Source: Phycisphaeraceae bacterium
GTDB taxonomy: Bacteria > Planctomycetota > Phycisphaerae > Phycisphaerales > UBA1924
Direction of reading: 5' to 3'
DNA: 64,000 nt
NCBI GenBank assembly: GCA_019636655.1
Contig: JAHBXB010000003.1
Location: forward strand, 372,001-436,000
The position numbers were made by a program, and so were the translations under genes. Below, in pieces: positions 26,016-51,798 of this stretch. Below the pieces are notes generated by a model. The model did not search any database. It saw only the letters and a list, made by a program, of their open reading frames with translations, and was not told the origin of the DNA. How positions within the stretch are numbered: the first letter of the stretch is position 1; each line of letters starts with the position of its first letter.

Positions 26016-26016
26016 T

Positions 26017-32114: not shown

Positions 32115-32120
32115 TAGCGG

Positions 32121-33440: not shown

Positions 33441-33517
33441 CGGGCGATGGTAGCCGAGGCCCTTGGACGCATATGGGCTGACTTCCGGCCCAATCAGTGG
33501 CCGCGCGCGAACAGTTG

Positions 33518-34192: not shown

Positions 34193-34278
34193 GGGCTCCT
34201 CCTGGAAGTTCGGGTTGAACCGGCGCTTCACAGCCTACCAAGACCTCGCCCGGCGGCGTTTCGACATTCCACTGTAAG

Positions 34279-35568
34279 ATGAACGGGATGGCGCCAGAAG
34301 CGACCCAGGCTGCTCCTTCCTCCGCTCCCAGGCTCCGGTGGGTCCTGATCGCCCCGACGTACAACCATGCCCGAACGCTTGGCGCGGTTCTAGCATCGCT
34401 CGGTCAGTATCGCCTTCCCATCATTGTCGTCAACGACGGCGCCACCGACGCGACCGAGGCTGTGCTCGAACAGTGGTTGGGAAGCCCGTCCGAACCGGCC
34501 AGAAGCGTGGTCACACACGCGACCAACCAGGGCAAAGCGGCCGCGCTGCGTTCCGGCTTTGCGGCGGCGATCCGGGCGGGGTATTCCCATGCCATCACGA
34601 TCGATACCGACGGCCAGCACGCCGCGGCGGACCTTGCGCAACTCGTACGGCTCTCCGAAGGCGACCCCGGCGCCCTGGTCGTTGGCGCCCGACGGGGCAA
34701 CGGCTCGGGCGCCCCCGTGGCCAGCCGCCTTGGTCGCGCCGTCTCGAACGCCCTTGTCTGGTATGAGAGCGGTATCTCAACCACAGACAGCCAGTCCGGC
34801 ATGCGCGTGTATCCGCTTTCGCATCTTGGGACGCTGGCCAGCGATGCCGAGCGGTACGGGTTCGAGACCGAGGTGCTTGTGCGCGCGGGCTGGCATGGCA
34901 TTCCGGTAATCGAATGCCCGATTCAGTGCATCTACCGCGTCCCGGGGGGACGCACCACTCACTTCCGACTCGTCCGGGACACGGTGTCGTCGGTCGTGAT
35001 GCACGCACGCCTCATGATGCGGGCGCATGCTCCGGGACCTGATCGCGTTGGGCTGACCAAAGACTACCGCACCGGTACGGTCCTGCGGCGCCTCGGCCAC
35101 TGGTTCAGCCCGCGGCGTCTGCGGCTGATGGCCCGGGGGGATGCGGCCTCTCGGGAACGACTCTCGGCATCCGTCGGTGTCGGACTGATGATGGCCGCGC
35201 TGCCCATCTACGGCCTGAAGACGGTGACCTGCCTGTGGCTCTCGCGCCGGTTCTGCCTCCACCCGCTCGCCGTGGTCAGCATCTCGAGCCTCTCCACCCC
35301 GCCGCTCGGACTGGTGTTTGTCGCGATCGCGCTCTGTGTCGGGGGGATCGCGTTGCACGGCCAGATCCCCGACCTCGCGGACCTGAATCTGCGGCAGGCG
35401 TCCCGGTGGTCGACCGTCAATGCCCTGCTGATCGAATGGCTCGTCGGCAGCGTTGCGGCGTCGGCGCTGCTCGGCCTGATCGGGTACTCACTGACCCGAG
35501 CCCTGCTTATGCGTCCTGCACACCGGCCGCCGGCGCTGATTGACCGCCCGAGCCACGAGGGCGCCTGA
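34279..35568 (+). CDS. GT2 glycosyltransferase fused to DUF2062 domain
   Basis: A 429-residue fusion. Residues 20-245 are a GT-A fold family 2 transferase (LIAPTYNHARTLGAVLASL, VVNDGATDAT, metal motif DTDGQH near 112-117). Residues about 290-390 form a DUF2062 membrane domain (SVGVGLMMAALPIYGLKT, FCLHPLAVVSISSLSTPPLG). The same pairing occurs in aryl-polyene clusters, where it is thought to modify the pigment or its lipid carrier. Its 3' end overlaps the halogenase-like gene by 62 bases on the other strand. No clear ribosome site precedes the ATG; an ATG three codons in is possible. Confidence 0.85.
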   Translation: MNGMAPEATQAAPSSAPRLRWVLIAPTYNHARTLGAVLASLGQYRLPIIVVNDGATDATEAVLEQWLGSPSEPARSVVTHATNQGKAAALRSGFAAAIRAGYSHAITIDTDGQHAAADLAQLVRLSEGDPGALVVGARRGNGSGAPVASRLGRAVSNALVWYESGISTTDSQSGMRVYPLSHLGTLASDAERYGFETEVLVRAGWHGIPVIECPIQCIYRVPGGRTTHFRLVRDTVSSVVMHARLMMRAHAPGPDRVGLTKDYRTGTVLRRLGHWFSPRRLRLMARGDAASRERLSASVGVGLMMAALPIYGLKTVTCLWLSRRFCLHPLAVVSISSLSTPPLGLVFVAIALCVGGIALHGQIPDLADLNLRQASRWSTVNALLIEWLVGSVAASALLGLIGYSLTRALLMRPAHRPPALIDRPSHEGA

Positions 35569-36883
35569 TCACTCCCGGCGGCCGCGGCCCAGATCCGACC
35601 ATGGGAAGCTCGTCCGGCGGCTGCGCGGCGAGGCAGAACGGTGCGCGTCTCGGCGAGAGTTCCGCGTATTGCTGCAACCACACGAACACCTCGAAGGCGA
35701 GGTGCCGCCACCGCAACGACCATGGCTGGCGAGGAAAGACCTGCCCGGCGAGAATTGAGATGATGGCGCCGGGAATCTGGAGCGGACCCGTCCCGTGAAC
35801 AAACAGTTCGCGGAAGGAGTGCTTGTAGTAACTCCGGATGAGCCTCCAGAACGGCCTGGTGCCGCACTCGATGTGGCGTCGATACCGACGCTGCGCCGTG
35901 GCAGGCCTCATCACGCCGCGGAGCATCTCCGCGGACAGGTCCGCCGCGCACGATGCGCTCATCATCGCCAGCGTGACGCCGGTCGAGAATATCGGGTCGA
36001 GGAAGCACGCGGCATCTCCGAGCAAGAAGTACCCGGGCCCGCAGTAGGGCCGGCACCGGTAACTGAAGTCTGAGAGCACGGCGTTCTCATTGCTCCCGGT
36101 GGCGCCCCTCATGCGGTGTCGGACGACCGGGCATCTGGCGATCGCCCACTGCAGGAGTCGCGTTGGGGGAACACCCAGCGTGCGGACAAACGACGGGCGT
36201 GTCACAAACCCCACGCTCGTTGTTGACTCATTCAGGGCGATCAACCAGAACCACCCCTCGTCGCACATGAGAATGGCGGGGTGCCCGGCTCCCCGGTCTG
36301 GCAGCCGCTCCACACCATCAAAGTGCTGGAAATAGGCCACCTTCTGGAGCTCGGGGTCTTCAAAGTTGCGACGCAGGTTCAACTCGCGTCCCACCAGCGT
36401 GCTGGACCCGCTTGCATCAAGCAGAACTCGGCCCCGCACCGGCCCCGCCGCGCATTCCAGCTCGATGTCCCCTTCGGAGAGCCGCGAGATGCTCTTGACG
36501 GCGCACTGCTCAAGGACATCCGCGCCGGAATCCCGCGCCGTGTTCAAGAGCAACTCATCGAAGCACGACCGCTCGATGTTAAAGACGGGCACGCCGGGAA
36601 GCAGGCCATCGGTGAACGAGAATGTCCGCGTCGCCGGGTCGTTTCCGAAACCGAACTCGGCGCCGAACTTCGCCACGTGGGGGAGAGCTAGCACGGCCCG
36701 GTCGATGCCAAGCTCTCGCAGCAGGGGCATGGTCCGCGGCAGGATCGACTCCCCGATATGGAACCTCGGATGCCGGTCCTTCTCGAGCACGCAGACGCTG
36801 AACCCGGCGCGGGACAGGAGGATCGCGGCGGTTGAACCGGCAGGTCCGCCCCCGGCAATGACGACGTCGTATTCCCGCTTCAT
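35507..36883 (-). CDS. FAD-dependent halogenase-like oxidoreductase
   Basis: A 458-residue flavoprotein of the tryptophan-halogenase/geranylgeranyl-reductase superfamily. FAD motif GGGPAG is at 11-16 and HIGESILP at 42-49. Three halogenase features are present: a lysine (K72) at the position of the catalytic halogenase lysine, W211-F-W213-L-I215-A216 in place of WxWxIP (Ala for Pro), and FLDPIFSTG at 294-302 matching FxxPxxSxG. The GD at 289-290 binds FAD ribityl. Xanthomonadins are brominated aryl polyenes, so halogenation of the aryl head is plausible; hydroxylation or desaturation is the alternative. Its ATG overlaps the KS-CLF stop by four bases. ATG 36883 is preferred to an upstream in-frame start. 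Confidence 0.82.
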   Translation of the reverse strand: MKREYDVVIAGGGPAGSTAAILLSRAGFSVCVLEKDRHPRFHIGESILPRTMPLLRELGIDRAVLALPHVAKFGAEFGFGNDPATRTFSFTDGLLPGVPVFNIERSCFDELLLNTARDSGADVLEQCAVKSISRLSEGDIELECAAGPVRGRVLLDASGSSTLVGRELNLRRNFEDPELQKVAYFQHFDGVERLPDRGAGHPAILMCDEGWFWLIALNESTTSVGFVTRPSFVRTLGVPPTRLLQWAIARCPVVRHRMRGATGSNENAVLSDFSYRCRPYCGPGYFLLGDAACFLDPIFSTGVTLAMMSASCAADLSAEMLRGVMRPATAQRRYRRHIECGTRPFWRLIRSYYKHSFRELFVHGTGPLQIPGAIISILAGQVFPRQPWSLRWRHLAFEVFVWLQQYAELSPRRAPFCLAAQPPDELPMVGSGPRPPGVIRRPRGSGGQSAPAAGVQDA

Positions 36884-39210
36884 ACACCCCTCCCAACGGG
36901 TGTTTCCGCCCCGCCGAGCCGCCGCTCCAAGCGTTCGAGCCCGACCGCCGATGCTGCCCCTGACCAGTCCGTGCACAACGAGGCCAACACCTCACCGGTC
37001 GAGCCGCCCACCAGCTCCCTGGCGATCCCCACGAACGGCGACACCGCGAACAGCTCGCCGAACACCTCGCTCCCCGATCCGCTGTCCTTCATGCCCGCCC
37101 GGCGCAGCCCAAGCTGCTCTGCCCGATCCACCCATGTGCCGCTTGCGGATCCGATCACCCGGCCCGGCACCGGCTTGAGCCGAGTGAGTACCGATGCCAC
37201 CGCCCCTGCCGGCCCGCCGCCCCCCCCAGCCCGCGGCATGGCCCACCGGCTCCCAAGCACGGCCCCATACGCCATCGCCCCGCGTGCCGCGGCCGCGGTA
37301 CTCGATTCGACCACGAACGCGACCCCGCCGAACGACCTGAAGAACCCCGGATGCCGCGCGTTCGACACACGTTCATCGCTCGCATGCAGCCCGTACTCCC
37401 TATAGGCATCATCGACAACGCCGCAGGGGGCCTCCGCGGCCACGACGAGGACTGTGTCGGCCGTGCCGTTTTGAACGCGGAGCGCCGCCAGAGCCAATGC
37501 ATCGAGCCCGGCGGTGCGCGAGCCGATGATCGTCTGGCAGGCCCCCCGCACGCCCAGCGACACACTCAGGTGCGCGGCCGCAGCGTTGGGAACCCCCTCG
37601 GCAAAGAGCACAGGATTGGCGGCCATGACCCCCTGGGAGACAATCTCCGAGTAGTACTCGTAACAGAACGACGCCGACCCGTGCATCGAGCCCAGGATCG
37701 CATTCGCAGAGGCCAATCGCTCGCGGTCACCGCCCAGACCGGCGTCCCGGACGGCCATCGCGGCGGCCGCCAGCGAGAACTTGACGTATTGGCTGAGACG
37801 GCGTGCCCGACGCACGTTCAGGTACTCGGCCATCGCCTCGTCACTGATCCCCTGTCCGCGTTGCGCCCGAGAGTCCGGAGGCCGACAGCAGCAGTTCACG
37901 AACGCCGCGTGCCCCACCGCGCCAGGCAGAACAACACCCACGCCGGTGATGCACGCGCGTCGCCCCGCGGGCAGGCCGGATCCCGCACGCGCCGACTGCT
38001 TGCGGTGGCGCTCCGCCTGGGTCAGCACCACGCACGTGTTGGCGCCGCCGAACCCGAGCGAAGTGTTGAGGGTGCATGGCACAGGGCGATCCGCCGCGCC
38101 GCCGCTCGACACGTTCAGCCCAGGAAACTCGATCTCCTCCGCCCGTACGTTCGGGCACGCGGGAACCCGCTGATCCCGCAGTGCCATGCACGACATCACC
38201 AGCTCAACCGCTCCAGCGCCGCCAAGTGTGTGGCCAAGAAAGCTCTTGAACCCGACGACAGGCACCCGAGGAAGGTCTTCGCCGAGCAGCCGCGACAGGG
38301 CCCGGAACTCGGACTCGTCATTCTCGGGTGTTCCGGTCGCATGGGCGGCGATCAGCCCAAGGTCCGCCGCTTCGACCCCGGCGCCGCGGAGGGCCTGTTG
38401 CATTGCTGCGAGCGCTCCCTCCCCCTGCGGGTGCGGCTGCGTGAGGTGGTGCGAGTCGGCCGTCTCTCCCCAGCCCGCCAGGACCGCCCGCACGCGTGCT
38501 CCACGCTCGGCGGCCTCGCACGCCCGCTCGAGGATCACGATCCCGTACCCCTCGGCCACCTTCATCCCCTGGCGACCACGGCAGAAGGGCCGGAGAGGCC
38601 CCTCCGCGATCAGCCTGAGCGAGTTGAACCCCGCCCAGGCATACTCGCTGATCGCGTCGTACCCGCCCGCGACGACCACGTCTGCCTGACCAGATTCGAG
38701 GAGCGTTGCGGCCAGCGCCACCGCCCCGAGACTCGATGAGCAGGCGGAGCACGTTGTGAGGGCGCCGCCCTCAATACCCAGGCCATCGAGAGATATTCTT
38801 GCGGTCGCGCTTGCAAGAAATGAGCCAAGGTCCCTTGCCTTGCCCGACCGCAGGAAGCGGCCGCCCGCTCGCAGCCCGTGAAGCGTGGTGCCAAGGACGG
38901 CGCACCGGCGAGAAGCGGGCCCGATCGCGGCGGAGAGGCCCGCATCCGCAAGGGCGTGCTCGATCGTCCATCGAAGATAGCGGGCTTCGCGAGGGAGGCC
39001 CGGGCAATACGAGGAGGGCAGGTCCGCCGCCTGGCCCCCGAGGCTCCCCGGAGGAAGGGCCGACTCGATATCCGTCATCGGGGCCATCCCGCAGCGTCCG
39101 GCCAGCATCGCACGCCAGATCGACTCGGCATCACCCCCCAGCGACGCGGTCGCCGCCACACCGGTAATGGCGATCGGAACTCGCTCGGTTTGCTCGCACC
39201 GTTCAGGCAC
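36880..39210 (-). CDS. Fused ketosynthase and chain-length-factor-like protein (KS-CLF)
   Basis: One 776-residue polypeptide with two thiolase-fold ketosynthase domains. Domain 1 (about 10-400) is intact: Cys157 in TTCSACSSS, His290 in AAHATGTPEND, Lys322 and His327 in FKSFLGHTLGGAG. Domain 2 (about 418-765) keeps the fold but has lost all three catalytic residues: the Cys site reads TIIGSRTAGLDAL (Arg565 at the Cys position), HGTGT is SASGTWVD, and no KxxxGH is present. That is the pattern of a chain-length factor. In aryl-polyene synthases KS and CLF are normally separate subunits of a heterodimer that builds the conjugated polyene; here they are one chain. The start overlaps the upstream acyltransferase by eight bases. 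Confidence 0.88.
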   Translation of the reverse strand: MPERCEQTERVPIAITGVAATASLGGDAESIWRAMLAGRCGMAPMTDIESALPPGSLGGQAADLPSSYCPGLPREARYLRWTIEHALADAGLSAAIGPASRRCAVLGTTLHGLRAGGRFLRSGKARDLGSFLASATARISLDGLGIEGGALTTCSACSSSLGAVALAATLLESGQADVVVAGGYDAISEYAWAGFNSLRLIAEGPLRPFCRGRQGMKVAEGYGIVILERACEAAERGARVRAVLAGWGETADSHHLTQPHPQGEGALAAMQQALRGAGVEAADLGLIAAHATGTPENDESEFRALSRLLGEDLPRVPVVGFKSFLGHTLGGAGAVELVMSCMALRDQRVPACPNVRAEEIEFPGLNVSSGGAADRPVPCTLNTSLGFGGANTCVVLTQAERHRKQSARAGSGLPAGRRACITGVGVVLPGAVGHAAFVNCCCRPPDSRAQRGQGISDEAMAEYLNVRRARRLSQYVKFSLAAAAMAVRDAGLGGDRERLASANAILGSMHGSASFCYEYYSEIVSQGVMAANPVLFAEGVPNAAAAHLSVSLGVRGACQTIIGSRTAGLDALALAALRVQNGTADTVLVVAAEAPCGVVDDAYREYGLHASDERVSNARHPGFFRSFGGVAFVVESSTAAAARGAMAYGAVLGSRWAMPRAGGGGGPAGAVASVLTRLKPVPGRVIGSASGTWVDRAEQLGLRRAGMKDSGSGSEVFGELFAVSPFVGIARELVGGSTGEVLASLCTDWSGAASAVGLERLERRLGGAETPVGRGV

Positions 39211-40147
39211 TCACCGCGTCCTCTTCAAAGGCCGCTCCAAGCACAAGCCACTGCGACGGGTATCGGGCGATCATCGTCTCAATCGACCTGGCCATCGCGA
39301 CCAGCGACGGGTCCGTCGCACCCGGGCCTGGATCGCTCTGCCCCGGCTCGATCGCCGGACACAAGTGGACGGCGAACCGGCCCGATGCGAGCCGCACCGT
39401 AAACACAGGCACGATCGGGCTCCCGGTAATCCGCGCAAGGCGGATCGCGCCGGTTGGAAGGCGGAGATGGCCGTGGAGAAACGGGACCACCTCGAACCGC
39501 TGGCCGGGCATCGCCCGGTCCGCCTGCATCACGACGACGTCGCCGCCTAGCAGCGCATCGCGCAGGCCCATCCACGTCGACATCCCCTCATCAATCGGCG
39601 CCTCAAGCGCACCCAGGAGCCGCCGCAATCTCGCCCGCATGGCCTCGAATGGTCCGGATGCGTCCCGCTTGTACACCACGTGCACCCGCTGCTCGACACG
39701 CATGAGCGCCGCCAGTCCCACTTCAAACGAACCCATGTGAGCCGTGACGAGAACGACCCCTCGGCCATCACCCCGAAGTGCCCGGTAGGCCTCCTCGCCT
39801 TCGACTCGCTCGATTCGTCCCCGCAGCCGCTCGATCGGCTCGCGGTTTGCCTGGCCGACGTCCAGAATAAACTCGTAGAAACTGTCCAGCACCGCCCGAG
39901 TGAACGCCCGCCCCTCGGATGGACTCAGCGGCCTTCCAAAGATCCGTGTCGCGTTTCGACGGGTCTGCACCCGGACCCCGCGAGAAACGAGCGGAACAAC
40001 TCGTGTTACCAGAGGCCGGATTGCCCTCAGTACACCCGGTGCCCTCACCGCGAGTCCAAAGAACGGCCCAAGCGCCTTCGGCGTGGTGGTAGGCGTTGCC
40101 CCGAGGGCTGCAGACTGCACCGAAATGTCCACCCGAGCCTGCATCAA
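39203..40147 (-). CDS. LpxL/HtrB-type lysophospholipid acyltransferase
   Basis: A 314-residue acyltransferase of the lipid A late-acyltransferase family. The catalytic HX4E motif is in TAHMGSFEVG and the later conserved segments are GGDVVVMQADRAMPG, LPTGAIRLARITGSPIVPVF. Such enzymes occur in aryl-polyene clusters and are thought to attach the polyene or a fatty acyl chain to a lipid. An N-terminal hydrophobic segment near 25-60 may anchor it to the inner membrane. It is the first gene of a three-gene minus-strand unit and diverges from the PlsC-like gene at 40216. Confidence 0.85.
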   Translation of the reverse strand: MMQARVDISVQSAALGATPTTTPKALGPFFGLAVRAPGVLRAIRPLVTRVVPLVSRGVRVQTRRNATRIFGRPLSPSEGRAFTRAVLDSFYEFILDVGQANREPIERLRGRIERVEGEEAYRALRGDGRGVVLVTAHMGSFEVGLAALMRVEQRVHVVYKRDASGPFEAMRARLRRLLGALEAPIDEGMSTWMGLRDALLGGDVVVMQADRAMPGQRFEVVPFLHGHLRLPTGAIRLARITGSPIVPVFTVRLASGRFAVHLCPAIEPGQSDPGPGATDPSLVAMARSIETMIARYPSQWLVLGAAFEEDAVSA

Positions 40148-40215
40148 CGCGCAGTATACAGGGGCCCACTCCGAGCGATCGCCGGCGGATCGCGGTTCGG
40201 TATCATGATGAGGAC

Positions 40216-40881
40216 ATGGGATCGCTCTTCTACCGGTCGTGCAGGCTCTGCAGCCGGTTCATCGCGTGGCAGACGCTCCGGGAAGTCGTTCTTGATTCCG
40301 ACCGCGCCGACCGAAAGGGCGGCTTCATCATTGCCTGCACGCACCTAAGCCATCTCGAACCGATACTCGTTTCAGCGACGATCGAGCGGCACATCCGCTG
40401 GATGGCACGCATCGAGTTTTATCGCCCCTGGTGGGGTGCCGCGGCGCTCAACCTTGGCGGCGCGTTCCCGGTCGACCGCTACGGATGCTCGCTCCCGGCC
40501 GTCCGCACGGCCGTCCGGCTCGCACAATCCGGGGAGTGCGTCGGCATCTTTCCGGAAGGTGGCGTAGCCAAGGGACGGCAGTCGATGCTCCGCGGCGCAC
40601 CCTTCAAGCACGGGGTCTGCACCGTCGCCGTTGCCTCGCGTACACCGATTCTGCCGGTCATCGTGCTTGGCACGGACAGGCTCAATCAGGTGTCGCCCTG
40701 GCTGCCCTTCCGTCGAGGCCGGCTGTGGTATGCGTTCGGCCACGATGTCGCCCCGCCGCCACGCTCGGCCTCTCGCCGGGCCGATCGCGCCGAGATGGCC
40801 TCCCGGTTGGGAGCTGAGTTCATCCGGCTGTACCACGACCTCCTCGCCAGGACGGGGCTGACGGACGGCGACATTCCCTGA
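40216..40881 (+). CDS. PlsC-like 1-acylglycerol-3-phosphate acyltransferase
   Basis: A 221-residue PlsC-family acyltransferase with HX4E in CTHLSHLEPIL and the substrate motif FPEGGVAKG. ATG 40216 follows GAGGA closely and starts the family fold; upstream in-frame codons belong to the intergenic region. It is 16 bases before a second PlsC-like gene, so the two probably form one transcript. In this context they may build or remodel the lipid anchor of the pigment. Confidence 0.85.
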   Translation: MGSLFYRSCRLCSRFIAWQTLREVVLDSDRADRKGGFIIACTHLSHLEPILVSATIERHIRWMARIEFYRPWWGAAALNLGGAFPVDRYGCSLPAVRTAVRLAQSGECVGIFPEGGVAKGRQSMLRGAPFKHGVCTVAVASRTPILPVIVLGTDRLNQVSPWLPFRRGRLWYAFGHDVAPPPRSASRRADRAEMASRLGAEFIRLYHDLLARTGLTDGDIP

Positions 40882-40897
40882 CCACCGGATCCCCCCG

Positions 40898-41605
40898 ATG
40901 AGTGACGCGTTCTATCGAGCCGTGCGGTTCCTGGGCTCCGCTCCGTTCTGGATCAGCGGTTCTCCCGTTGTCATTGGCGCGGAGCACATCCCCCTCAGTG
41001 GGCGGTGCATTCTCGCGGCTACGCACCAGAGCCCGTACGACGTGGCGCTGCTCATCCGGCACACCCCGCGGCTCCTGGACTTCGTGAGCATCGTCGAGGT
41101 CTTCCAGAATCCGTTTGTCGCCTGGTTCTACGGATCCTTGAACGCATTCCCGCTCGATCGCTCCCGGCCGGACGCCAAGACCGTCCGGATTATCCTGGAA
41201 CGGCTCGAGCGAGACCGGGCGGTTGCGATGTTCCCGGAGGGTGCGTTCCGCAAGGGGGCCGAATCGGTGGTCTACACCCGGCGCATCCGCCAGGGTGTCG
41301 GCCGAGTTGCGAGGTTGACCGCCTCGCCGGTCGTCCCCTGCGTGATTGTTGATTCCCATCTCTACAGCCGTCCGGCAAGCTGGCTCCCGTTCCGTCTCAC
41401 ACGATACGGGCTGATCTACGGCGACCCGATCGACCCGGCGCTCGACCCGGACGACATCGAATCGCGACTGGTCGATGCGTTTGTCGCCCTGCACGCCCGG
41501 CTCAACTCGCACATGGTTCACTCCGCCCGCGCACGCCGGCCCGCGGAGCACGGCGGATCAGGATCGGCATCAACAGCAGCAGGGAGCCAACGCCGGACGC
41601 CATGA
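40898..41605 (+). CDS. PlsC-like acyltransferase, second copy
   Basis: A 235-residue PlsC-family protein with the canonical HX4D (ATHQSPYDVA) and FPEGAFRKG motifs. Overall similarity to the preceding gene product is clear but distant. The last 35 residues (HSARARRPAEHGG and after) are basic and low complexity and lie over the 3' end of the MMPL gene on the other strand: a 104-base convergent overlap. The family fold ends before the overlap, so the tail may be dispensable. Confidence 0.83.
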   Translation: MSDAFYRAVRFLGSAPFWISGSPVVIGAEHIPLSGRCILAATHQSPYDVALLIRHTPRLLDFVSIVEVFQNPFVAWFYGSLNAFPLDRSRPDAKTVRIILERLERDRAVAMFPEGAFRKGAESVVYTRRIRQGVGRVARLTASPVVPCVIVDSHLYSRPASWLPFRLTRYGLIYGDPIDPALDPDDIESRLVDAFVALHARLNSHMVHSARARRPAEHGGSGSASTAAGSQRRTP

Positions 41606-44114
41606 TCCCCACGGCGGAGACGAGCCCGAGGGACTGTATGGCCGGCGTGTGCGAGATGCACAGCGAGCCGAACGCCGTCGCGGTCGTGCCTACCGAGAGC
41701 GAGATGGCATGAACCGTGGGTCGCAGGTGCGGCCGCAGTTCGGCGCGCGTCGCGCCGTCCGAACGGAAGACCGACACAAGAAACACACCGGCATCAACCG
41801 CGATCCCTCCGAGCAGCGGGATGGCAACCGTATTGATGGGATTGAAGAGCTGCCGCGTCGCGACGATGAACGCAACGGTGGCGACCGCCGCAAACGCCAG
41901 CGGAAGAAGCGCCAGCAGCACATCGACAGCGCGACGGAAGACAATCATCAGCCAGAGCAGCACGAGCCCGAACGAGATTGCTATTGCTCGCGGGAGCCCG
42001 ACCCTGGCGGCCGCGTCCAGCTCCTCGGACACGGCGTCGATCCCCGCAACTGTGACCTCCCCGCCACGAACACCCGACGCCGCCTTCCTGAGCGCCGCGA
42101 TGGTGTGCCGCCGCTGCTCGCGGTCGTGCAGCGGCTCCGCAAGCCGCACAACGAGCATGGTGCTCGTCGGTTGACCTCCGCCAACCAGGCTCGCGGCCGG
42201 AAAGACCCGCTCCGCCACCGAGCGATACCGCATGACGTCGGCCACGGTCGGCACACGCCGCGACCCCAGGATCTCAGCAAGCACCCCTCTGTAGCCGGCG
42301 TAGGCCTTCGGTTCGAACTGACTCTCTGCAATCGCTGCATCAAACGCCTCGATGACCCTGCTCGGATCGAGCCGGTCGAGCATCCGCAGCCTGCCCGCGG
42401 TCTGCCTCGGATCAGGCAGAAGCGTGCCCAACCCCAGAACGGCAGTCACCCCTGCCTCGCGGCACGCCGGCGAGGTCAGCGCGCGGGCAGCATCGTGCGC
42501 AACGCCGACCAGCTGGTCCGCCGCCGCCGCCCGCACCTCGATCGGGACCAGAGCCCCCTGCCTCGAGAACCGCCGCATGACCTCCGAAGTCGCATCGAGG
42601 GCCTTGCTCGGGCGAGGGTGCATCACGGTGAGGTCCGACTCGAAGCCGATCGAGAACCCCTGGGCGGCCGCCGCCACAACGCCCGCACCAAGAATCGCCA
42701 GCGACAGTCCCATGCACGTGCGAGGCCGGTCCACAACACCATCGGCAAACCTATTGAACATCGCCCGGCCCGCCGCCCGATGCGTCTCTCGTCGATCAGT
42801 GACCGCCAGCACCGCCGGCATCAGCACGAACACCGCGAGGAACGCCCCGAGCAGCCCCGCTGCCCCCATGACCGCGAAGTCGCTCAGCATCTTGATCGTG
42901 GAGGGCCACAGGCTCATAAATCCGAAGATGCTCGTGAAGCAGTTGGTCCCGATCGGCACGGCCATGTGCCGTGCCGTCTCCACCGACGCCGCCGCGCTGC
43001 CCTGGCCCTCGCCGCGATACCCGTCGTAGCGAGACAGGAAGTGGACCCCGTAGTCAGCGCCGATCCCCGCGAGCAACGCCGCAATCATCGCCGCCAGCGG
43101 CGAGACCTCGCGGACCACCACCGCCACCGCGCCAACCCCCGCCAGCATGCCGACGGCCGCGACTCCGCCGATCACCAGACCCGCCGACCATCGGCTGTAG
43201 AACAGGAAGAACAAGGCATACAGCAGCGCCACCGAGGCCAGAACGCTCACGATCGAGTCACGCCGAATGACACGTGAGGTTTCGCGCGCAATAGCCGCGG
43301 ACCCCGCCATGGCCACGCTCAGACCCGTCGAGTTCGTCTTGGCCGCGAGCCGTTCAACGGCATCGACCGTCCTGCCCGCCGCTTCGTAGTCCCCACCATC
43401 CCCCACGGTTCCAATGCTCAGGAGAATCGCCCGGCCATCGTCCGACAACTCTGGCTTCCCGACCACAGGGGCATCAGCCGCGACGTCCGAGCGCAGCTCG
43501 GGCGGCACCAGATCGAATAGGCGAAGGGGATCCCGCAGGACCCCCTCACTCAGCGCCGCCCCAGCGGCGCCCGGCGCGGAGATCATCGCCTCGTTTCTCG
43601 CAATCTGCCTGCGGATCTGCGCCGGCTGCAGCCGGCGCTCGAGCTCCTCCACGGCCCCTTCGCTGAGATAGAACACGCCATGAGGGAGCATCACCTCGCG
43701 TGCGAACCTCAGCAGTTCAGGATCCTCGCGGAACCGCGCCCACAAGACGAGCCGCGAAGCGACCGGGTCGCTCCCCAGTGCTGACGCAAGGCGCGTCGCA
43801 TAGCCCACCAACTCCGCCCGCCCCGCGTCATCGGCTGCACGGCCCTCCGGAAGCTCTACCAGCAGCATCAACTCCGCCCCGGACCGGTACCCGGAAACAA
43901 CCCGCTCCATCGCGGCGGCGGCGCCGGAACCACTCCCGAGTATGCCGGTCAGGGACGACGTGATGTGAAGCCGACTGAGCGAAACCAAGGAGAAGGCCAG
44001 GACCACCACCGCGCCCGCCAGCACCCAGCCCGGCCGCGTCGCGGACCACCCTGCGAGGCGTGCAGCAAGGTCGCCGATGTGTCCCGAATCAGTCCTGGTT
44101 GAGGCACGACTCAA
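41502..44114 (-). CDS. MMPL/RND-type lipid exporter
   Basis: An 870-residue RND-superfamily transporter of the MMPL group. Twelve membrane helices are expected: one near 28-48, a block at about 265-420 with the motif GIGADYGVHFLSRYDGY, a large periplasmic loop before each block, and a second block near 690-860. MMPL proteins in aryl-polyene clusters move the finished pigment out of the inner membrane. Its start overlaps the stop of the upstream lipoprotein gene by four bases, so it is translated with the export partners and biosynthetic genes upstream. Confidence 0.9.
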   Translation of the reverse strand: MSRASTRTDSGHIGDLAARLAGWSATRPGWVLAGAVVVLAFSLVSLSRLHITSSLTGILGSGSGAAAAMERVVSGYRSGAELMLLVELPEGRAADDAGRAELVGYATRLASALGSDPVASRLVLWARFREDPELLRFAREVMLPHGVFYLSEGAVEELERRLQPAQIRRQIARNEAMISAPGAAGAALSEGVLRDPLRLFDLVPPELRSDVAADAPVVGKPELSDDGRAILLSIGTVGDGGDYEAAGRTVDAVERLAAKTNSTGLSVAMAGSAAIARETSRVIRRDSIVSVLASVALLYALFFLFYSRWSAGLVIGGVAAVGMLAGVGAVAVVVREVSPLAAMIAALLAGIGADYGVHFLSRYDGYRGEGQGSAAASVETARHMAVPIGTNCFTSIFGFMSLWPSTIKMLSDFAVMGAAGLLGAFLAVFVLMPAVLAVTDRRETHRAAGRAMFNRFADGVVDRPRTCMGLSLAILGAGVVAAAAQGFSIGFESDLTVMHPRPSKALDATSEVMRRFSRQGALVPIEVRAAAADQLVGVAHDAARALTSPACREAGVTAVLGLGTLLPDPRQTAGRLRMLDRLDPSRVIEAFDAAIAESQFEPKAYAGYRGVLAEILGSRRVPTVADVMRYRSVAERVFPAASLVGGGQPTSTMLVVRLAEPLHDREQRRHTIAALRKAASGVRGGEVTVAGIDAVSEELDAAARVGLPRAIAISFGLVLLWLMIVFRRAVDVLLALLPLAFAAVATVAFIVATRQLFNPINTVAIPLLGGIAVDAGVFLVSVFRSDGATRAELRPHLRPTVHAISLSVGTTATAFGSLCISHTPAIQSLGLVSAVGIMASGVGSLLLLMPILIRRAPRAGVRGRSEPCAS

Positions 44115-44854
44115 GGGATCGCCCTTGCCCGCTGCGACGGCACAAACGCCCCGGGGGGCAACTCTCCGTTAATTTCCAGTTGGCGCACCCGGACAACCAC
44201 CTCGCCCGCCTGGCTCCGTATTCGCACCCGCATCGGCCAGATGGCCCCGTCCACCGCCTGGTACTGATCGAGAACGACCTCCCCGCCGTTCAACGAGGCG
44301 CCGGACCCCATCACAAACCGCCGCGGCGCCAGTGTGGCCCGGACAATCTCGCACACCACATCGTCTCGCCCCAGAGCGGCCCCGCACGCGATAAGCATCG
44401 AAGCGTCCGCACGGACGGGCCGCGCGGTCCTGAAGTAGCCCGGTCCGAGCAGCCCCAAAACATCTCGCACCCCTGTCGACGACACGTGCTCGGCGTCCAG
44501 GCGCCGACCGCCCTGTTCCTCTTCCGGCGTCATCAACCACGCCCCATCATCCGTTACCGTCAGATCAAACACAGCGTGCCCGAACTTCCACGCGCGCATC
44601 CTCATCTTGCCGGGAAGTTCGGCCACTATCACGCCATCAACTCGAACGCTCTGACCCTCGGAGTCGGTGAGGTCCAGGTCGCACTCCGCCACGAGATGCG
44701 TCACCGAGGCCTGGCGATCCGCGATGGTTGTGAGCGACTCCTCGGCACTCATCGTTGGGTAAACCGGCAGTGAGCCCGCACACCCGCTCAACAGCCCGGC
44801 CGCGGCCGCCGCTGCTCCCGTCATCGTCCTTCGGCACACCACTTGGATCTCCAC
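44111..44854 (-). CDS. Lipoprotein, LolB/LolA-like fold (pigment export partner)
   Basis: A 247-residue lipoprotein with lipobox LLSGC near 24. GTG 44854, directly after the upstream stop, is chosen because it supplies the two arginines before the hydrophobic core; ATG 44824 would leave no positive charge. The mature part is rich in beta strands (VRVDGVIVAELPGKMRMRAWKFG, VRIRSQAGEVVVRVRQLEI), consistent with the half-barrel of LolA/LolB lipid carriers. Together with the MMPL exporter and the LolA-like gene it probably hands lipid-linked pigment to the outer membrane. Family assignment is by pattern only. Confidence 0.65.
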   Translation of the reverse strand: MEIQVVCRRTMTGAAAAAAGLLSGCAGSLPVYPTMSAEESLTTIADRQASVTHLVAECDLDLTDSEGQSVRVDGVIVAELPGKMRMRAWKFGHAVFDLTVTDDGAWLMTPEEEQGGRRLDAEHVSSTGVRDVLGLLGPGYFRTARPVRADASMLIACGAALGRDDVVCEIVRATLAPRRFVMGSGASLNGGEVVLDQYQAVDGAIWPMRVRIRSQAGEVVVRVRQLEINGELPPGAFVPSQRARAIP

Positions 44855-46315
44855 CTAGACGAGGTGTCGGAGGACCTTGCCCGTCGCCGACTTCGGCAGC
44901 GACGCCGAGAGCTCAATCGACCGCGGAACCTTGACCGACGAGAGTCTTGCCCGAACATAACGCCGGAGTTCATCAGGGGTGGGCGGCTGATCCGCACACG
45001 GAACCACAACCGCACGGAGCCTTTGCACCGTCTGAGAGGCCGCTACCGGCACAACGACGCACTCGGCGACCCCGGGGTGCGTAGCAAGCACCCGCTCAAC
45101 CTCAAGGGGGTTCACCTTGAATCCCCCGACGTCGATCAGGTGCTTGAGCCTTCCGGTGATCCAGATCCGGCCAATCGCATCGGTCCTCGCCAGGTCTCCG
45201 GTCAGCAGGTACCCATCGACCAACGGAACATCTCCGTCAAGGTACTCCGACAGCATGGAGGCCGCGCGGACCGCCAGCTGTCCCTCTTGGCCTGTTGGGA
45301 GCAACCGGCTCGGATCCGCAATATCCACAATGCGAATCGAAACTCCGGCGAGCGGCCGACCGACAGAAGCCGGATCGAACCCATCAGATCCCGGCGCATC
45401 GATCGCCACGGTCCCAAGCTCAGTCGCCCCGTAGAGCTGCCCGATGTCAGCCCCCCACGCCGCGGCGAACCCCCGGCGCACCGGGTCGGGCAGGGGCGAA
45501 CCCGCCGACACAGCCAGCCGAAGCGCCGTGGGACGCGTGCGCTCGCGGCGAGCGAGCGCCTCAAAGACAAACGGAACCCCGGGAAGTACTGTGGCTCCCT
45601 CCTCGAGCTCCCGCGCGACGTACTCGGCGTCGAACTGCCCCATCACGCGGAGCCCGGCCCCGGCGGTCAACGCGCCCACCAGCACATCCACACCGTACGA
45701 GTGGCTGAGCGACGTCGGAAACACGATCCGATCCGCGGCGGTCAGGCCCATACCGGCGATCACCCCGGCCGCGTCGGCATCCAACGACTCGCTCGTTCGC
45801 ACGACGAGCTTCGGCAGTCCCGTCGTTCCGGAGGACCCGAGCACCAGCGAACCATGGGCCGTGGGCACCAGCGCGTTCCGGTTCACGCCGAGTCCCAACG
45901 CCAGGTGACTGAGCGCCGGTTCCGCCTCAAGGCCTGGACCAACCAACGCGGCAACGGCCCCGGCCCGCGTCGCCGCCGCCAGCGCCTCGGGGCCCGCGAT
46001 CTGCGGGTGCATCGGCAGAAACCGCAGGCCGGCCGCGATGGCCGCACAGAACCACGCCGCGAACTCAGTACCGGCCGGGAGCACCGCAATCAGCACGTCG
46101 CCCGGGTCCAGGGACCCGCGAAGTTGCTGAGTCCGTGAAGACACGAGACCCGCCAACTCGCCGAAGGTACAGCGCCCCCTCGCCCCGTCCAGTTCCCCCA
46201 CCGCTTCCGCCTCCGGCCGTTCCAGCGCGTGCCGGTTGATCGCATCAATCACCCCCCACCCAACGCCCTGCGCGCCGGAGGAGCGTTCCAGCCGCTGCTC
46301 GACCGACCTATTCAT
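44855..46315 (-). CDS. AMP-dependent acyl/aryl-acid ligase
   Basis: A 486-residue adenylate-forming enzyme: P-loop-like A3 motif SLVLGSSGTTGLPK near 150-163, A5 YGATE, A7 TGDLARTD, A8 ITGRLKHLIDVGG and A10 lysine in LPKSATGKVLRH. ATG 46315 is taken over an upstream in-frame start because the upstream stretch is Arg/Trp-rich shadow of the chorismatase gene. It overlaps that gene by eight bases. In this cluster its likely job is to activate the hydroxybenzoate made by the chorismatase and load it on the ACP. Confidence 0.9.
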   Translation of the reverse strand: MNRSVEQRLERSSGAQGVGWGVIDAINRHALERPEAEAVGELDGARGRCTFGELAGLVSSRTQQLRGSLDPGDVLIAVLPAGTEFAAWFCAAIAAGLRFLPMHPQIAGPEALAAATRAGAVAALVGPGLEAEPALSHLALGLGVNRNALVPTAHGSLVLGSSGTTGLPKLVVRTSESLDADAAGVIAGMGLTAADRIVFPTSLSHSYGVDVLVGALTAGAGLRVMGQFDAEYVARELEEGATVLPGVPFVFEALARRERTRPTALRLAVSAGSPLPDPVRRGFAAAWGADIGQLYGATELGTVAIDAPGSDGFDPASVGRPLAGVSIRIVDIADPSRLLPTGQEGQLAVRAASMLSEYLDGDVPLVDGYLLTGDLARTDAIGRIWITGRLKHLIDVGGFKVNPLEVERVLATHPGVAECVVVPVAASQTVQRLRAVVVPCADQPPTPDELRRYVRARLSSVKVPRSIELSASLPKSATGKVLRHLV

Positions 46316-47255
46316 GCGGCGCGCCACCCATGCGGCCCGGCACCACCGTCGCCTCGATCTCCACCAGCAACTCGGCCCGGCAGATCTTCGCCGGGAAGTA
46401 CTCCACATCGGCGGTCCGTGGCAACCTCCCCGACAGGGCCGCCCTCAGCGCCGAACGATCCGCGGGCCGCCGAAAGTAGACTCGCGCCGTTTCGGTCCCG
46501 TCTATCGAGTACGAGTCTGGACCCGGCACGCCCCGAGCCAGACGATCGATATTCGCGAGCGTTTCCTCCAGTTGAAGCGACAGCGAGCCCGGATGCACAG
46601 AGTCCTCACCCCTGATGCTCGCCGTGCCCGAGACGAGGAGACGCCGGCCCAGCGGCAATGAGGCCACTGTCGCCCGTGCAAAGCACGGCGGCCGCGGACC
46701 ATACGCCCGGGAGTACTCAAACGCAGGAATCTGCCGCGGATTCTCTACCGGCACACCGGGCACACCTGATCCCATCGCGCATACGACGAGGTGGTCGCCA
46801 TCATGACCTACCGCCGATGCGGCCGGGAGAACTCCCGCGAAGGGTCTGGTCCCGAAGCACCGCGTATAGGCGGCGAATCGACCCAAGTTGAAGACCCGGT
46901 AGCGATCAAGCCCTTCATCCATCTGGTCGTGGATGCCGGGCACAAACGCCCACGTCCTCAGCGGATGCGGGAAGCCACCCTCGTTCAGGCCCGCGAGCAC
47001 CAGTTCGAACACCGCCGCGACACTCTCGTTCAGTTGGCCCGTCGACAGGCTCGTGGCGCCAGGCACGACAGCGGCCACCATCCCGATCCCGTCGCCCCGG
47101 TAGTGCTCTAACCCCGCCGACCCTCCCGCGGCCAGCCCCGCAAGACGGGAGGCGACCATGTGGGGCGTCAGCCGCCTCGCCCACGCCGGCACCATCGCCC
47201 TCCCCGATGACTGCAGCAGTTCAGCGCCCTGGCTCGCCACGCTCGTCTCCAGCAC
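46308..47255 (-). CDS. Chorismatase of the FkbO/Hyg5/XanB2 family
   Basis: A 315-residue chorismatase that should hydrolyse chorismate to a hydroxybenzoate (3-HBA and/or 4-HBA) or a related product plus pyruvate. Family landmarks: NLGRFAAYTRCFG, NPRQIPAFEYSRAYGPRPPCFARA, VSGTASIRGEDSVHPGSLSLQ and the end CRAELLVEIEATVV. In Xanthomonas, XanB2 of this family supplies the aromatic starter of xanthomonadin. Product type cannot be settled by eye. The start is a GTG nine bases after the LolA-like gene and the stop overlaps the AMP-ligase start, matching a starter-synthesis then activation order. Confidence 0.85.
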   Translation of the reverse strand: MLETSVASQGAELLQSSGRAMVPAWARRLTPHMVASRLAGLAAGGSAGLEHYRGDGIGMVAAVVPGATSLSTGQLNESVAAVFELVLAGLNEGGFPHPLRTWAFVPGIHDQMDEGLDRYRVFNLGRFAAYTRCFGTRPFAGVLPAASAVGHDGDHLVVCAMGSGVPGVPVENPRQIPAFEYSRAYGPRPPCFARATVASLPLGRRLLVSGTASIRGEDSVHPGSLSLQLEETLANIDRLARGVPGPDSYSIDGTETARVYFRRPADRSALRAALSGRLPRTADVEYFPAKICRAELLVEIEATVVPGRMGGAPHE

Positions 47256-47264
47256 CCTGTGGTC

Positions 47265-48065
47265 TCAGGGCGTCCTCTCGGGACCGTTGCCCGCGCCAGC
47301 CTCGCTCCGATGGACACCGCGAACGTCCCCCATCGGGCGGGACACGCGAGTCGTCTGCGGCACCTTGAGTTCGAGATCATCCGGCTTCATCCCGGTGTTC
47401 AGTCGCACATGGCTGAACACGATCTCCGTCTCCTCGCCCTCCGGATCGGTCATGACCACCCGCTTCGCCGCCGGCGCTGATTCATCGATCAGAACCCGCA
47501 CAAAACTGACGTGCCGCCGCAGGGCTTCGGACCTCGGCGTGAGCCGAAGAGCAAGACTCTTACCATCGCCATCCTCGCCCATGATCCGTGGCTCCAAGGG
47601 CTCGATTTCGAACCGCTCCCGAAGCACGGCCAACCGAGGAAGCGGCCCGCCTGCAAGGTCCCTGAACCCCTCGCCGACCGGATAGATCTCCAGCAGACCA
47701 TCGTCCGGGTAGTACATCTGGATCGACTCGCTCGAGACCAAGAGCGACGACTTCCGCGGCGAGGCGGTGTCCCATCGAACCAGTTCCCCCTTTGCCCGGA
47801 CAACTCCCTGGGACACCAGCGGCTTCTTGAGAAGCGGCGAGTGCCGCCGTTGCTCGAAGTCGGCGCGGAGATCCTGCACCGTGGACATCGCCGCGTCAAC
47901 CGCCTCGAGCCGCTCAACAAATCGCGACCCATCAGAGGACGAAGCGGACTGGGATGCGGCGGGCTGGCAGAATGAGTCCAACGGTCGGCCCCACCATGAC
48001 GCCATCGCACACGCGGCGGCGATCGCAAAGCGGCACACGGGACCGACGGCTCCAATCAGCATCAC
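47265..48065 (-). CDS. LolA-like outer-membrane lipoprotein carrier
   Basis: A 266-residue secreted protein with a hydrophobic N-terminus (about 5-30) and a LolA-type beta half-barrel: QDLRADFEQRRHSPLLKKPLVSQGVVRAKGELVRW, SSLLVSSESIQMYYPDDGLLEIYPV. Periplasmic LolA-like proteins are standard in aryl-polyene clusters and are thought to ferry the lipid-linked pigment. The GTG at 48065 overlaps the dehydratase stop; an ATG one codon on is equally possible. Confidence 0.83.
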   Translation of the reverse strand: MMLIGAVGPVCRFAIAAACAMASWWGRPLDSFCQPAASQSASSSDGSRFVERLEAVDAAMSTVQDLRADFEQRRHSPLLKKPLVSQGVVRAKGELVRWDTASPRKSSLLVSSESIQMYYPDDGLLEIYPVGEGFRDLAGGPLPRLAVLRERFEIEPLEPRIMGEDGDGKSLALRLTPRSEALRRHVSFVRVLIDESAPAAKRVVMTDPEGEETEIVFSHVRLNTGMKPDDLELKVPQTTRVSRPMGDVRGVHRSEAGAGNGPERTP

Positions 48066-48481
48066 TCCACCCTCGCCAGAACAAGCGACCCCGATGCGGC
48101 GACCGCCCCGGCAACCGTCGCCCGCACATCAAAGAGGCACAGACCCGACATCTCCCGGGCCAGTACCGAGTGCAGCCGGATCTCCGCCGGCGGAACAATG
48201 CCGGTATGAAACTTCACATCCACCTGCGCCAGCCTCGCTGAAGGAGAATACCCCGAAGCCCCGCCGGAAAAGGCCATCACGCCGGACACCTGGGCGAGCG
48301 CCTCGGCGACCAGCACACCGGGCACGACCGGGTTGTCCGGGAAGTGGCCTGCAAAGAAATCCTCATCTCCCCGCACCCGCCAGGTGCCCAGAACGCTCCT
48401 CCCCGCCTCGAGTTCCTCGACGCTGGTTACAAACAGGAACGGCGGCCGGTGCGGCAGGTTTTCCAGCGTCCCTGTGCGCAT
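48062..48481 (-). CDS. FabZ-like 3-hydroxyacyl-ACP dehydratase
   Basis: A 139-residue hot-dog protein. The catalytic His is in FFAGHFPDNPVVPGVL and the acidic residue in EALAQVSG, with the family start NLPHRPPFLFV. It would remove water from 3-hydroxyacyl intermediates to create the conjugated double bonds of the polyene. It lies five bases after the ACP gene and overlaps the LolA-like gene. Confidence 0.92.
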   Translation of the reverse strand: MRTGTLENLPHRPPFLFVTSVEELEAGRSVLGTWRVRGDEDFFAGHFPDNPVVPGVLVAEALAQVSGVMAFSGGASGYSPSARLAQVDVKFHTGIVPPAEIRLHSVLAREMSGLCLFDVRATVAGAVAASGSLVLARVE

Positions 48482-48486
48482 GAGGA

Positions 48487-48759
48487 TCAGCCTCTCTTCG
48501 AGCCATCCTGTGGCAACCCCTCGATCAGCAACCCGAGTGTTGTCACATTCGTAAACGCCGCCTTGCTCATCGATCCGTCCGTGATCTTGACACCGAACTC
48601 CTTCTCAAGCTCCGTCACGATCAGCAGGATGTCGAGTGAATCGAGGTCGTACTCGCCCCCTACCAGCGGCATGGTGTCCTCGAACAGCGTCTGCTCATCC
48701 ACTTTCAGACACCGGCGGATCACCCCCTTCACGCGGCTCAATGTCTCGGTGCTAGGCAT
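48487..48759 (-). CDS. Acyl carrier protein
   Basis: A 90-residue carrier protein. The phosphopantetheine serine is S41 in YDLDSLDILLIVTELEKEFGV, a variant of the DSL motif, with flanking acidic helix residues as in dedicated polyketide/aryl-polyene ACPs. It is the first gene of the seven-gene minus-strand unit that runs to the MMPL exporter and is divergent from the methyltransferase gene. Confidence 0.93.
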   Translation of the reverse strand: MPSTETLSRVKGVIRRCLKVDEQTLFEDTMPLVGGEYDLDSLDILLIVTELEKEFGVKITDGSMSKAAFTNVTTLGLLIEGLPQDGSKRG

Positions 48760-48844
48760 GCGACTCCGTAGACTCCTGTCCGACGCCGTGCGCCGCCGGC
48801 CCGAACGCTGACTCGAGCGAGCCCTCCGTATCCGAACCAGCCTG

Positions 48845-48850
48845 TATGAT
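48845..48850 (+). promoter_or_regulatory. Possible -10 element for the methyltransferase gene
   Basis: TATGAT lies 34 bases before the ATG at 48885 inside the 125-base gap between the divergent ACP and methyltransferase genes. No good -35 hexamer is seen at normal spacing. Confidence 0.3.
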
Positions 48851-48884
48851 ACGGGCCGGATGCGACGATTTCAGGAGCTCGGAC

Positions 48885-49676
48885 ATGGCTGTCCATGACT
48901 GGCCCGACTCATCGGGCTCATCACCGCCGCCGCTCGCCCCGCATCCGACGATCCCTCGCTCGTACTCGGCGCCCGAGCACAAGCGGGCATTTCTCAACGG
49001 CATTTTCGACGAGACCGCGCCGGACTACGACCGGGTCGAGCGGTGGCTCTCCCTCGGCAGCGGCCGTTGGTACCGCCGAAAGGCCCTGGCAAGGGCCGGC
49101 CTGCAACCCGGGATGCGCGTCGCCGACATCGCCGTAGGAACCGGGCTTGTCGCGGGAGAGGCGCTCAAACTGGCCGGACCGACCGGCAACGTTGTCGGGG
49201 TCGACCCCAGCCCGCAGATGATGCGACGGGCCAGGGAACGGCTGGGCATCGAGACGTTCGAAGGGACCGCGGAGTCCCTTCCGCTCCTCGCCGGATCGTT
49301 CGACTTCCTCTCGATGGGGTACGCCCTGCGCCACGTCGATGACCTCAACGGTGCGTTTCGAGAGTTTCACAGGGTGCTCAACCCCGGTGGTCCATTCGGC
49401 CCGGGGCGTCTGTGCATCCTGGAGATCACACGCCCCCGCACGCGTGCCGGGCGGGCGTGGCTTTATGCGTACCTGGGGGGTGTCTCGCGCCTGCTCGGCG
49501 CCGTCGCTAGGCTCTCGCCTAGGACCCCGGAACTCTGGCAGTACTACTGGGAGACCATCGACCGCTGCCTCCCCCCGGAGCTGATTCTCGAGTCGCTCCG
49601 CAACGCCGGCTTCTCGAACGAGCGGCGGCACGTCGTAAGCGGGATCTTCTCGGAATACACGGCGACACGCGCGTAA
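48885..49676 (+). CDS. UbiE/MenG-like SAM methyltransferase
   Basis: A 263-residue class I methyltransferase of the UbiE/COQ5 type: the N-terminal IFDETAPDYDRVERWLSLGSGRWYRRKAL matches the family entry, SAM motif ADIAVGTGLV, VVGVDPSPQMM, and FLSMGYALRHVDD. ATG 48885 is preferred to an earlier in-frame codon because AGGAG ends seven bases upstream. Methyltransferases are usual in aryl-polyene clusters, where they alkylate the aryl head; a quinone-pathway role is the alternative, but the context favours the pigment. Confidence 0.85.
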   Translation: MAVHDWPDSSGSSPPPLAPHPTIPRSYSAPEHKRAFLNGIFDETAPDYDRVERWLSLGSGRWYRRKALARAGLQPGMRVADIAVGTGLVAGEALKLAGPTGNVVGVDPSPQMMRRARERLGIETFEGTAESLPLLAGSFDFLSMGYALRHVDDLNGAFREFHRVLNPGGPFGPGRLCILEITRPRTRAGRAWLYAYLGGVSRLLGAVARLSPRTPELWQYYWETIDRCLPPELILESLRNAGFSNERRHVVSGIFSEYTATRA

Positions 49677-49709
49677 CGGCCCCCCGCCATCCCGCCCGCG
49701 CCGATCACC

Positions 49710-51653: not shown

Positions 51654-51798
51654 GCGAGAATGACCCCGGGGTGCACTGCAGGGAGAACTCCGCGGCGTCG
51701 CCCGGCGCGCGGGGCGTGGGCGAAGCCGGGGTGGCGTACCGCCCGGGCCCGACGCTCCCCTGGATCGGGCGAGACTCGGCCGGCGCGGTCGCCCTTGA

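Follow-up and report, generated by a model that had tools for sequence, protein, structure and literature searches.

A chorismatase-linked cluster in a Phycisphaerae genome

We analysed a 64-kb stretch of the genome of a Phycisphaeraceae bacterium (assembly GCA_019636655.1, contig JAHBXB010000003.1), hereafter called the window, and found within its positions 34279–49676 a cluster of 14 genes (Table 1), which is probably a xanthomonadin-like aryl-polyene (APE) cluster of a type so far seen in Phycisphaerae and their planctomycete relatives. The minus-strand genes encode, in order of transcription, an acyl carrier protein (ACP), a FabZ-like dehydratase, a LolA-like carrier, a chorismatase, an AMP-dependent ligase (AMP ligase), a lipoprotein, an MMPL exporter, an LpxL-type acyltransferase, a ketosynthase (KS) joined to a chain length factor (CLF), and a halogenase-like (Hal) flavoprotein. 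The plus strand carries two PlsC-type acyltransferases in the middle of the cluster and, at its two ends, a GT2-DUF2062 protein and a UbiE-type methyltransferase, and several neighbours overlap by a few bases. All of the gene types that an earlier note on this DNA had named are present, each with a Pfam match, and the host, with a genome of 3.66 Mb, is a planctomycete as that note had supposed, its nearest named relatives by chorismatase being metagenome-assembled genomes of Phycisphaerales (58% identity). Since other genomes of Phycisphaerae have much the same genes, frequently in an unchanged order, the cluster is not a chance assembly of genes.

A single-chain ketosynthase and chain length factor

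The KS and CLF are encoded as one open reading frame (ORF) of 776 residues. In an alignment of 41 rows (39 distinct loci, the window itself and a truncated repeat), every row has the KS residues Cys157, His290 and His327, and none has a Cys at the matching CLF site. Arg occupies this site in 33 of the 41 rows, and a Gln stands six residues before it (position 559) in 21 rows of this alignment, in which Lysobacter ORF16 is not included. An AlphaFold2 model of the whole chain, based on 26 aligned sequences, reached a predicted local distance difference test score (pLDDT) of 90.8 and a predicted template modelling score of 0.94, and its top Foldseek match over the full length was 6RIW, the KS–CLF didomain of PfaC (TM-score 0.80 by query). 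With the two-domain model, VIA-align yielded single KS chains only, which is uninformative on the CLF half. The best NCBIfam model for the KS was fabF, under its cut-off.

Every one of the 39 distinct fused relatives belongs either to a Planctomycetota record or to a genome from the same order or family as the window. They represent 49 fused loci, as L030 and L055–L072 repeat some contigs of L074–L153; L060 and L084 are also fused but cut at the contig end and stand outside the 39, L086, L128 and L131 begin inside the gene, and L072 is cut. An assembly artefact was rejected as the origin of the fusion in view of these 39 distinct ORFs. The fused gene was found in 33 of the 80 named loci; KS and CLF are separate ORFs in five acidobacterial loci, no fused ORF occurs in the nine proteobacterial loci with a KS, and the CLF of the canonical APE cluster is a separate protein of 233 amino acids (aa). 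A planctomycete outside the window's class (L031, genome G092) also has KS and CLF in two ORFs (412 and 407 aa), together with homologues of the chorismatase, Hal, AMP ligase and MMPL protein, and one exceptional locus (L061, G464) has a KS ORF followed by no CLF match.

The idea that a KS–CLF fusion is unique in biology was rejected, as proteins of Priestia and Streptomyces and PfaC are also fused; the novel aspect seems to be the fusion within a chorismatase-primed cluster. We met no description of a KS–CLF fusion in such clusters in the literature, where many of the matches were available as listings or excerpts. One such excerpt counts Planctomycetes among the phyla with type II KS–CLF matches, and the words fused and fusion are absent from it (PMC10132072).

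The aryl starter unit

The chorismatase has Gly210 and Cys292 as in 5AG3, at positions where FkbO (4BPS) has Ala and Ala. The Cys is kept in 90 of 90 ungapped rows and the Gly in 94 of 94, the latter partly by construction, as the Gly sits in one of the two search patterns; the row counts for chorismatase, FabZ and halogenase-like residues include repeated loci. Family and marker residues fit an enzyme that would make 3-hydroxybenzoate, and the genes for an AMP ligase and an ACP, as needed for the putative aryl starter, are both present. XanB2-type enzymes yield 3- and 4-hydroxybenzoate, and ArcT is active with 3-hydroxybenzoate (PMC3949708). Pigments of this type are started by an XanB2-type chorismatase and an AMP ligase, and their KS, ACP, ketoreductase and CLF-like ORF16 are required (PMC3949708, PMC3691225).

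Export and tailoring

The 247-aa protein gave no Pfam or NCBIfam match. Its lipobox Cys25 is invariant in 12 of 12 rows, and its AlphaFold2 model (pLDDT 81.7) matched LolA3 (3.6e-09) and LolB (2.1e-07) in Foldseek, so that by its predicted structure it is a lipoprotein of the LolA/LolB fold. By analogy with APE clusters, in which ApeL is LolA-like, ApeM an RND protein and ApeN LolB-like (PMC8253772), the LolA-like carrier, the LolB-fold protein and the MMPL protein would together fit export to the outer membrane. Two export versions were apparent among the 31 fused loci compared: LolA is present in 13, and another 16 have a class-III aminotransferase, with an ABC-2 permease in 11, the combination of LolA and class-III aminotransferase occurring in none of the 31. 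In the sister clusters L063–L071 and others, a class-III aminotransferase, often accompanied by an ABC-2 permease, was seen without LolA. Nine fused loci add a polysaccharide deacetylase, as in Azoarcus.

Flavin-dependent halogenases have a conserved active-site Lys. In the halogenase-like protein, Lys103 aligns with the Lys of 3E1T and 8ZOP and is present in 66 of 66 rows, 7 of which are paralogues of less than 30% identity; the related flavin adenine dinucleotide (FAD) enzyme of the canonical APE cluster (L168) has Glu at this site. The flavoprotein is likely to halogenate, although it may have another function.

Comparison with known systems

Like the xanthomonadin and arcuflavin clusters of Xanthomonas, Lysobacter and Azoarcus BH72 (PMC3949708), the window has an XanB2-type chorismatase, an AMP ligase, a KS with a CLF-like partner, an ACP and a dehydratase, along with LolA, an exporter, acyltransferase, glycosyltransferase, methyltransferase and halogenase. 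Unlike them, it has a fused KS–CLF, one dehydratase instead of two, a LolB-fold lipoprotein and a KS in another clade, and no ketoreductase was found in it; furthermore, its CLF is a full-length domain, whereas Lysobacter ORF16 is similar to no more than the N-terminal half of one (PMC3691225). The xanthomonadin-like logic proposed in the earlier note is supported by the chorismatase with its Hyg5-type marker residues, the AMP ligase, ACP, FabZ, KS with CLF, LolA, MMPL and halogenase-like enzyme, but the fused KS–CLF and the ketoreductase that was not found set the cluster apart from the canonical set. From its genes, the cluster appears to function like a xanthomonadin cluster, yet we leave it outside the canonical membership, since a ketoreductase was sought and not found.

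With APE clusters of the E. coli and Pseudoalteromonas type, the window shares KS, CLF, ACP, AMP ligase, dehydratase, GT2, LolA-like, RND/MMPL and LolB-like proteins and a related FAD enzyme. The Pseudoalteromonas plasmid cluster L168, which served as the canonical APE comparison, gave matches to the KS, GT2, FAD enzyme, AMP ligase, dehydratase, ACP, LolA, MMPL and LpxL proteins of the window, some of them weak. The Pseudoalteromonas cluster differs by an aromatic amino acid lyase, a ketoreductase, a second KS, the 233-aa CLF and two each of ACPs and dehydratases, whereas the window has a chorismatase and none of these extras. The chorismatase-linked loci of Acidobacteriota supply the nearest KS clade and lie on the same side of the chorismatase tree as the window, but differ in that KS and CLF are separate in five loci, three of which have a ketoreductase.

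The fused gene itself resembles PfaC of polyunsaturated fatty acid (PUFA) synthase in holding KS and CLF in one chain with a full-length fold match, although the identity is 18%, and no other PUFA-synthase gene, including a PfaA-type partner with tandem ACPs, is among the Pfam matches of the cluster. This likeness, together with the fabF model as best KS match (under cut-off) and the several acyltransferases, would suit a product in which a membrane lipid bears an aryl fatty acid, polyunsaturated or modified in some other way, made by a logic nearer to that of PUFA synthases or fatty-acid synthesis than to that of pigments. We regard such a product as very improbable, as the chorismatase and AMP ligase share the cluster, the KS halves group with those of Acidobacteriota and ApeO/Xan (90/93), and no enoyl reductase, isomerase or multi-ACP protein is among the cluster's Pfam matches. 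Plasmids of Priestia megaterium and Streptomyces likewise encode a KS and a CLF-like half in one ORF (809 and 787 aa), but in other gene contexts with a ketoreductase, and these KS halves fall outside the window's group. The fused double-KS gene of the Priestia megaterium plasmid (L155:9001-11430) lies in a small type II polyketide synthase-like cluster with FabG, FabZ, ACP and malonyltransferase. The window's own genome holds a second ketosynthase gene pair (G000:C2:627045-630003, L042), whose products are 39% and 31% identical to E. coli FabF.

Phylogeny of the KS–CLF and the chorismatase

In the second of two KS trees, for which own_L027 (branch length 10 in the first tree) was dropped and the fused rows were thinned from 28 to 13, the fused KS halves form one clade (100/100), and the nearest KS are acidobacterial (86/74, unstarred). 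In a combined KS and CLF tree, from which A_L104 was omitted and in which the fused rows were thinned to 12 CLF and 3 KS, the fused KS group with the acidobacterial and ApeO/Xan KS at the 90/93 given above, apart from Priestia and Streptomyces, while for the CLF halves a clade shared with Priestia and Streptomyces was not rejected (p 0.162). A quick chorismatase tree put planctomycete, acidobacterial and myxococcal sequences, together with two proteobacterial rows, on one side and the actinobacterial and the majority of the proteobacterial sequences on the other (99). We do not favour a recent transfer from Xanthomonas-type bacteria, as KS and chorismatase go with Acidobacteriota rather than most Proteobacteria, in a quick tree for the chorismatase and an unstarred placement for the KS.

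Proposed pathway

In the xanthomonadin-like pathway that we propose, the chorismatase would make 3-hydroxybenzoate, which the AMP ligase would activate for the ACP. The single-chain KS–CLF would then extend this starter with malonyl units, and FabZ would dehydrate after every round, so that a conjugated polyene chain would grow, with ketoreduction supplied by an enzyme encoded elsewhere, most likely the FabG of fatty-acid synthesis. The ring would be methylated and possibly halogenated, the acyltransferases and the GT2 protein would attach the chain to a lipid, and the MMPL, LolA and LolB-like proteins would carry the product, which would be expected to be coloured, and perhaps yellow and protective against oxidation as the earlier note had predicted, to the outer membrane. 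What the sequences show is the gene content, the key residues, the fusion, the conservation and that no ketoreductase was detected nearby; the chemistry and its sequence of steps, the role of FabG, the location and the colour are inferred.

A wider proposal, credible although we stop just short of favouring it, is that this constitutes a distinct planctomycete architecture, in which a single-chain KS–CLF is combined with a chorismatase, a ketoreductase of its own is dispensed with and the pathway runs on FabG. Such clusters, equipped for export either with LolA, a LolB-fold protein and MMPL or with an ABC-2 permease and a class-III aminotransferase, might then give many uncultured Phycisphaerae a polyene lipid that is as yet undescribed and possibly halogenated.

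Ketoreduction and other points that weigh against the assignment

Several points weigh against a xanthomonadin-like product, and the missing ketoreductase is the main gap in this reading. The genome has 11 matches to short-chain dehydrogenases/reductases (SDRs), none of them inside the window, and no ketoreductase was found in the cluster. A BLAST search with three of the genome's SDR proteins as queries detected no ketoreductase around the 39 distinct fused loci, of which 22 are flanked by 5 kb or more of sequence on each side. Deletion of the cluster ketoreductase in Lysobacter abolished the pigment (PMC3691225). A ketoreductase was found in 8 of the 9 proteobacterial loci with a KS (some being close kin), in 3 of the 5 acidobacterial loci with KS and CLF, and in the one myxococcal locus with KSs. 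The unfused planctomycete locus L031 also gave no ketoreductase by the same BLAST, and its loss therefore need not accompany the fusion. Other genes conserved among the 31 fused loci include no reductase among the families listed.

That no ketoreductase was found in the cluster or near its 39 distinct relatives would suit a non-polyene aromatic lipid, for which the KS–CLF would build a wholly or partly unreduced 3-hydroxybenzoyl polyketide that, after acylation and halogenation, would reach the outer membrane as a phenolic lipid. We consider this improbable, since the cluster's single FabZ-like dehydratase, for which there is no clear use without reduction, recurs in 30 instances across the 31 fused loci and keeps its His and Glu (His11 in all 45 ungapped rows, Glu60 in all 47), and a housekeeping FabG exists. 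Because the FabZ His and Glu are conserved, we infer that an enzyme encoded elsewhere carries out the ketoreduction, the FabG of fatty-acid synthesis being the most likely one; the sole SDR above the FabG cut-off adjoins fabH and fabD.

A variant that overlaps with this explanation, and differs only in the reductase, is that a dedicated ketoreductase at another locus acts instead of FabG. In Azoarcus the pathway genes are divided between two unlinked loci (PMC3949708), in genome G356 the homologues of Hal and AMP ligase lie far from the KS–CLF, and the 11 SDR matches leave candidates in the window's genome. However, among the five stretches read, which cover 6 of the 11 matches, one is the fab operon and four have no other match to the fatty-acid or cluster queries, and we judge the variant unlikely, though it deserves to be kept in view.

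The remaining points on the adverse side concern the starter, the CLF, the phylogeny and the colour. The product of a chorismatase is not predictable from alignment alone (PMC3949708). Among 19 genomes from the KS–CLF search (18 of the 19 others matching at 1e-75 or better, with G512 omitted, plus G550), a chorismatase was seen in the stretch read in 13 but not in 6 (L056, L059, L060, L061, L071 and L072, the stretches of L060 and L072 running to the edge of a contig). In some relatives the starter may be a different one, or the gene may lie far away. The CLF half of the window gave no significant match to the short CLF of L168, and a Gln (Q166) is essential in Lysobacter ORF16 (PMC3691225), while most of the 41 rows have Arg at the CLF site that matches the KS Cys. 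The window KS lies outside the Xanthomonas/ApeO clade, although joining both was not rejected (approximately unbiased test, p-AU 0.429). Finally, Phycisphaera mikurensis has a pink colour, and in planctomycetes colours have been attributed to carotenoids (PMC8882080, PMC12078418).

Distribution and significance

A KS–CLF match at 1e-75 or better was found in 20 of the 201 genomes of the window's order, its own included, and in 2 of the 68 genomes of its family, and a chorismatase at 1e-5 in 24 of the 392 genomes of the phylum, again with its own. The distribution is patchy. The loci of the chorismatase search are the best 80 of 361, in which a chorismatase is present by construction. Two of the 12 other chorismatase genomes with surroundings read (G356 and G092) hold more of the cluster; G356 has the fused KS–CLF, LpxL, LolA, FabZ, ACP, GT2 and chorismatase together, with the Hal and AMP-ligase homologues elsewhere. 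A chorismatase match on a Caballeronia plasmid and a KS match in Variovorax lie outside pigment clusters.

The extension of the APE class proposed in the earlier note is partly in print already, as an antiSMASH table records one arylpolyene cluster in P. mikurensis (PMC8882080), and single arylpolyene clusters are tabulated for other planctomycetes (PMC11588811, PMC10923784). As judged from listings, we met no gene-level account of planctomycete arylpolyene clusters in the literature. A 2025 review gives five compound classes reported from planctomycetes, all from the class Planctomycetia (PMC12078418), and Phycisphaerae chemistry is therefore open ground. If true, a fixed one-to-one KS–CLF without a dedicated ketoreductase would offer a clean test of FabG sharing between aryl-polyene and fatty-acid synthesis; the single chain is also a convenient object for structure and chain-length studies, and the cultured strain P. 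mikurensis makes the pathway testable.

Gene coordinates and flanking regions

Two of the ORFs in Table 1 probably begin further inside than listed, as judged from their reading frames: the start of the AMP ligase would be an internal ATG near 46312, and that of the halogenase-like protein one near 36883, each overlapping the upstream stop codon.

Table 1. Genes of the cluster, with positions in the window and principal matches
Product	Position	Strand	Matches and remarks
GT2-DUF2062 glycosyltransferase-like protein	34279..35568	+	PF00535 3.8e-17, PF09835 2.5e-09; 32% to GT2 of canonical APE cluster
Flavin-dependent halogenase-like protein	35507..36976	-	PF04820 (Trp_halogenase) 2.5e-26; CmlS model 186 bits, under its cut-off; aligns with PDB halogenases
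Fused ketosynthase (~1-405) and chain length factor (~411-776)	36880..39210	-	PF00109/PF02801, ketoacyl synthase 2.1e-36
LpxL/HtrB-type acyltransferase	39203..40147	-	PF03279 3.2e-22; homologue in 31/31 fused loci compared
PlsC-type acyltransferase 1	40096..40881	+	PF01553 1.4e-15; orthologues in L055/L077 and L074
PlsC-type acyltransferase 2	40898..41605	+	PF01553 1.3e-19
MMPL/RND-type lipid exporter	41502..44114	-	PF03176 4.5e-36; HpnN-like model 153 bits, under cut-off
LolB-like outer-membrane lipoprotein, 247 aa	44111..44854	-	Lipobox Cys25, predicted LolA/LolB fold
AMP-dependent ligase for putative aryl starter	44855..46408	-	PF00501 8e-41, PF13193 1.2e-16
Chorismatase, FkbO/Hyg5/XanB2 family	46308..47255	-	PF21168 5.1e-17; TIGR04444 3.5e-46, under its cut-off; 5AG3 2.7e-32
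LolA-like periplasmic carrier	47265..48065	-	PF03548 3.9e-09; NF053544 flexirubin LolA2 1.3e-13, under cut-off
FabZ-like 3-hydroxyacyl-ACP dehydratase	48062..48481	-	PF07977 9.1e-19
Acyl carrier protein	48487..48759	-	PF00550 8e-07
UbiE-type S-adenosylmethionine methyltransferase	48846..49676	+	PF01209 3.4e-24; homologues in several related clusters

The flanks are apparently unrelated to the cluster, with purD and an ankyrin-repeat protein on one side and a SurA-like protein (under the Pfam cut-off) on the other. The gene for the ankyrin-repeat protein, at 33518-34231, adjoins the cluster. When the flanking ORFs (26000-34200 and 49650-58000) were compared with the 31 related loci, the sole match was to one ORF, in L082. 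Two large adjacent minus-strand ORFs at 52614-57929 (889 and 866 aa) both match this same ORF, which lies beside the fused cluster of L082.

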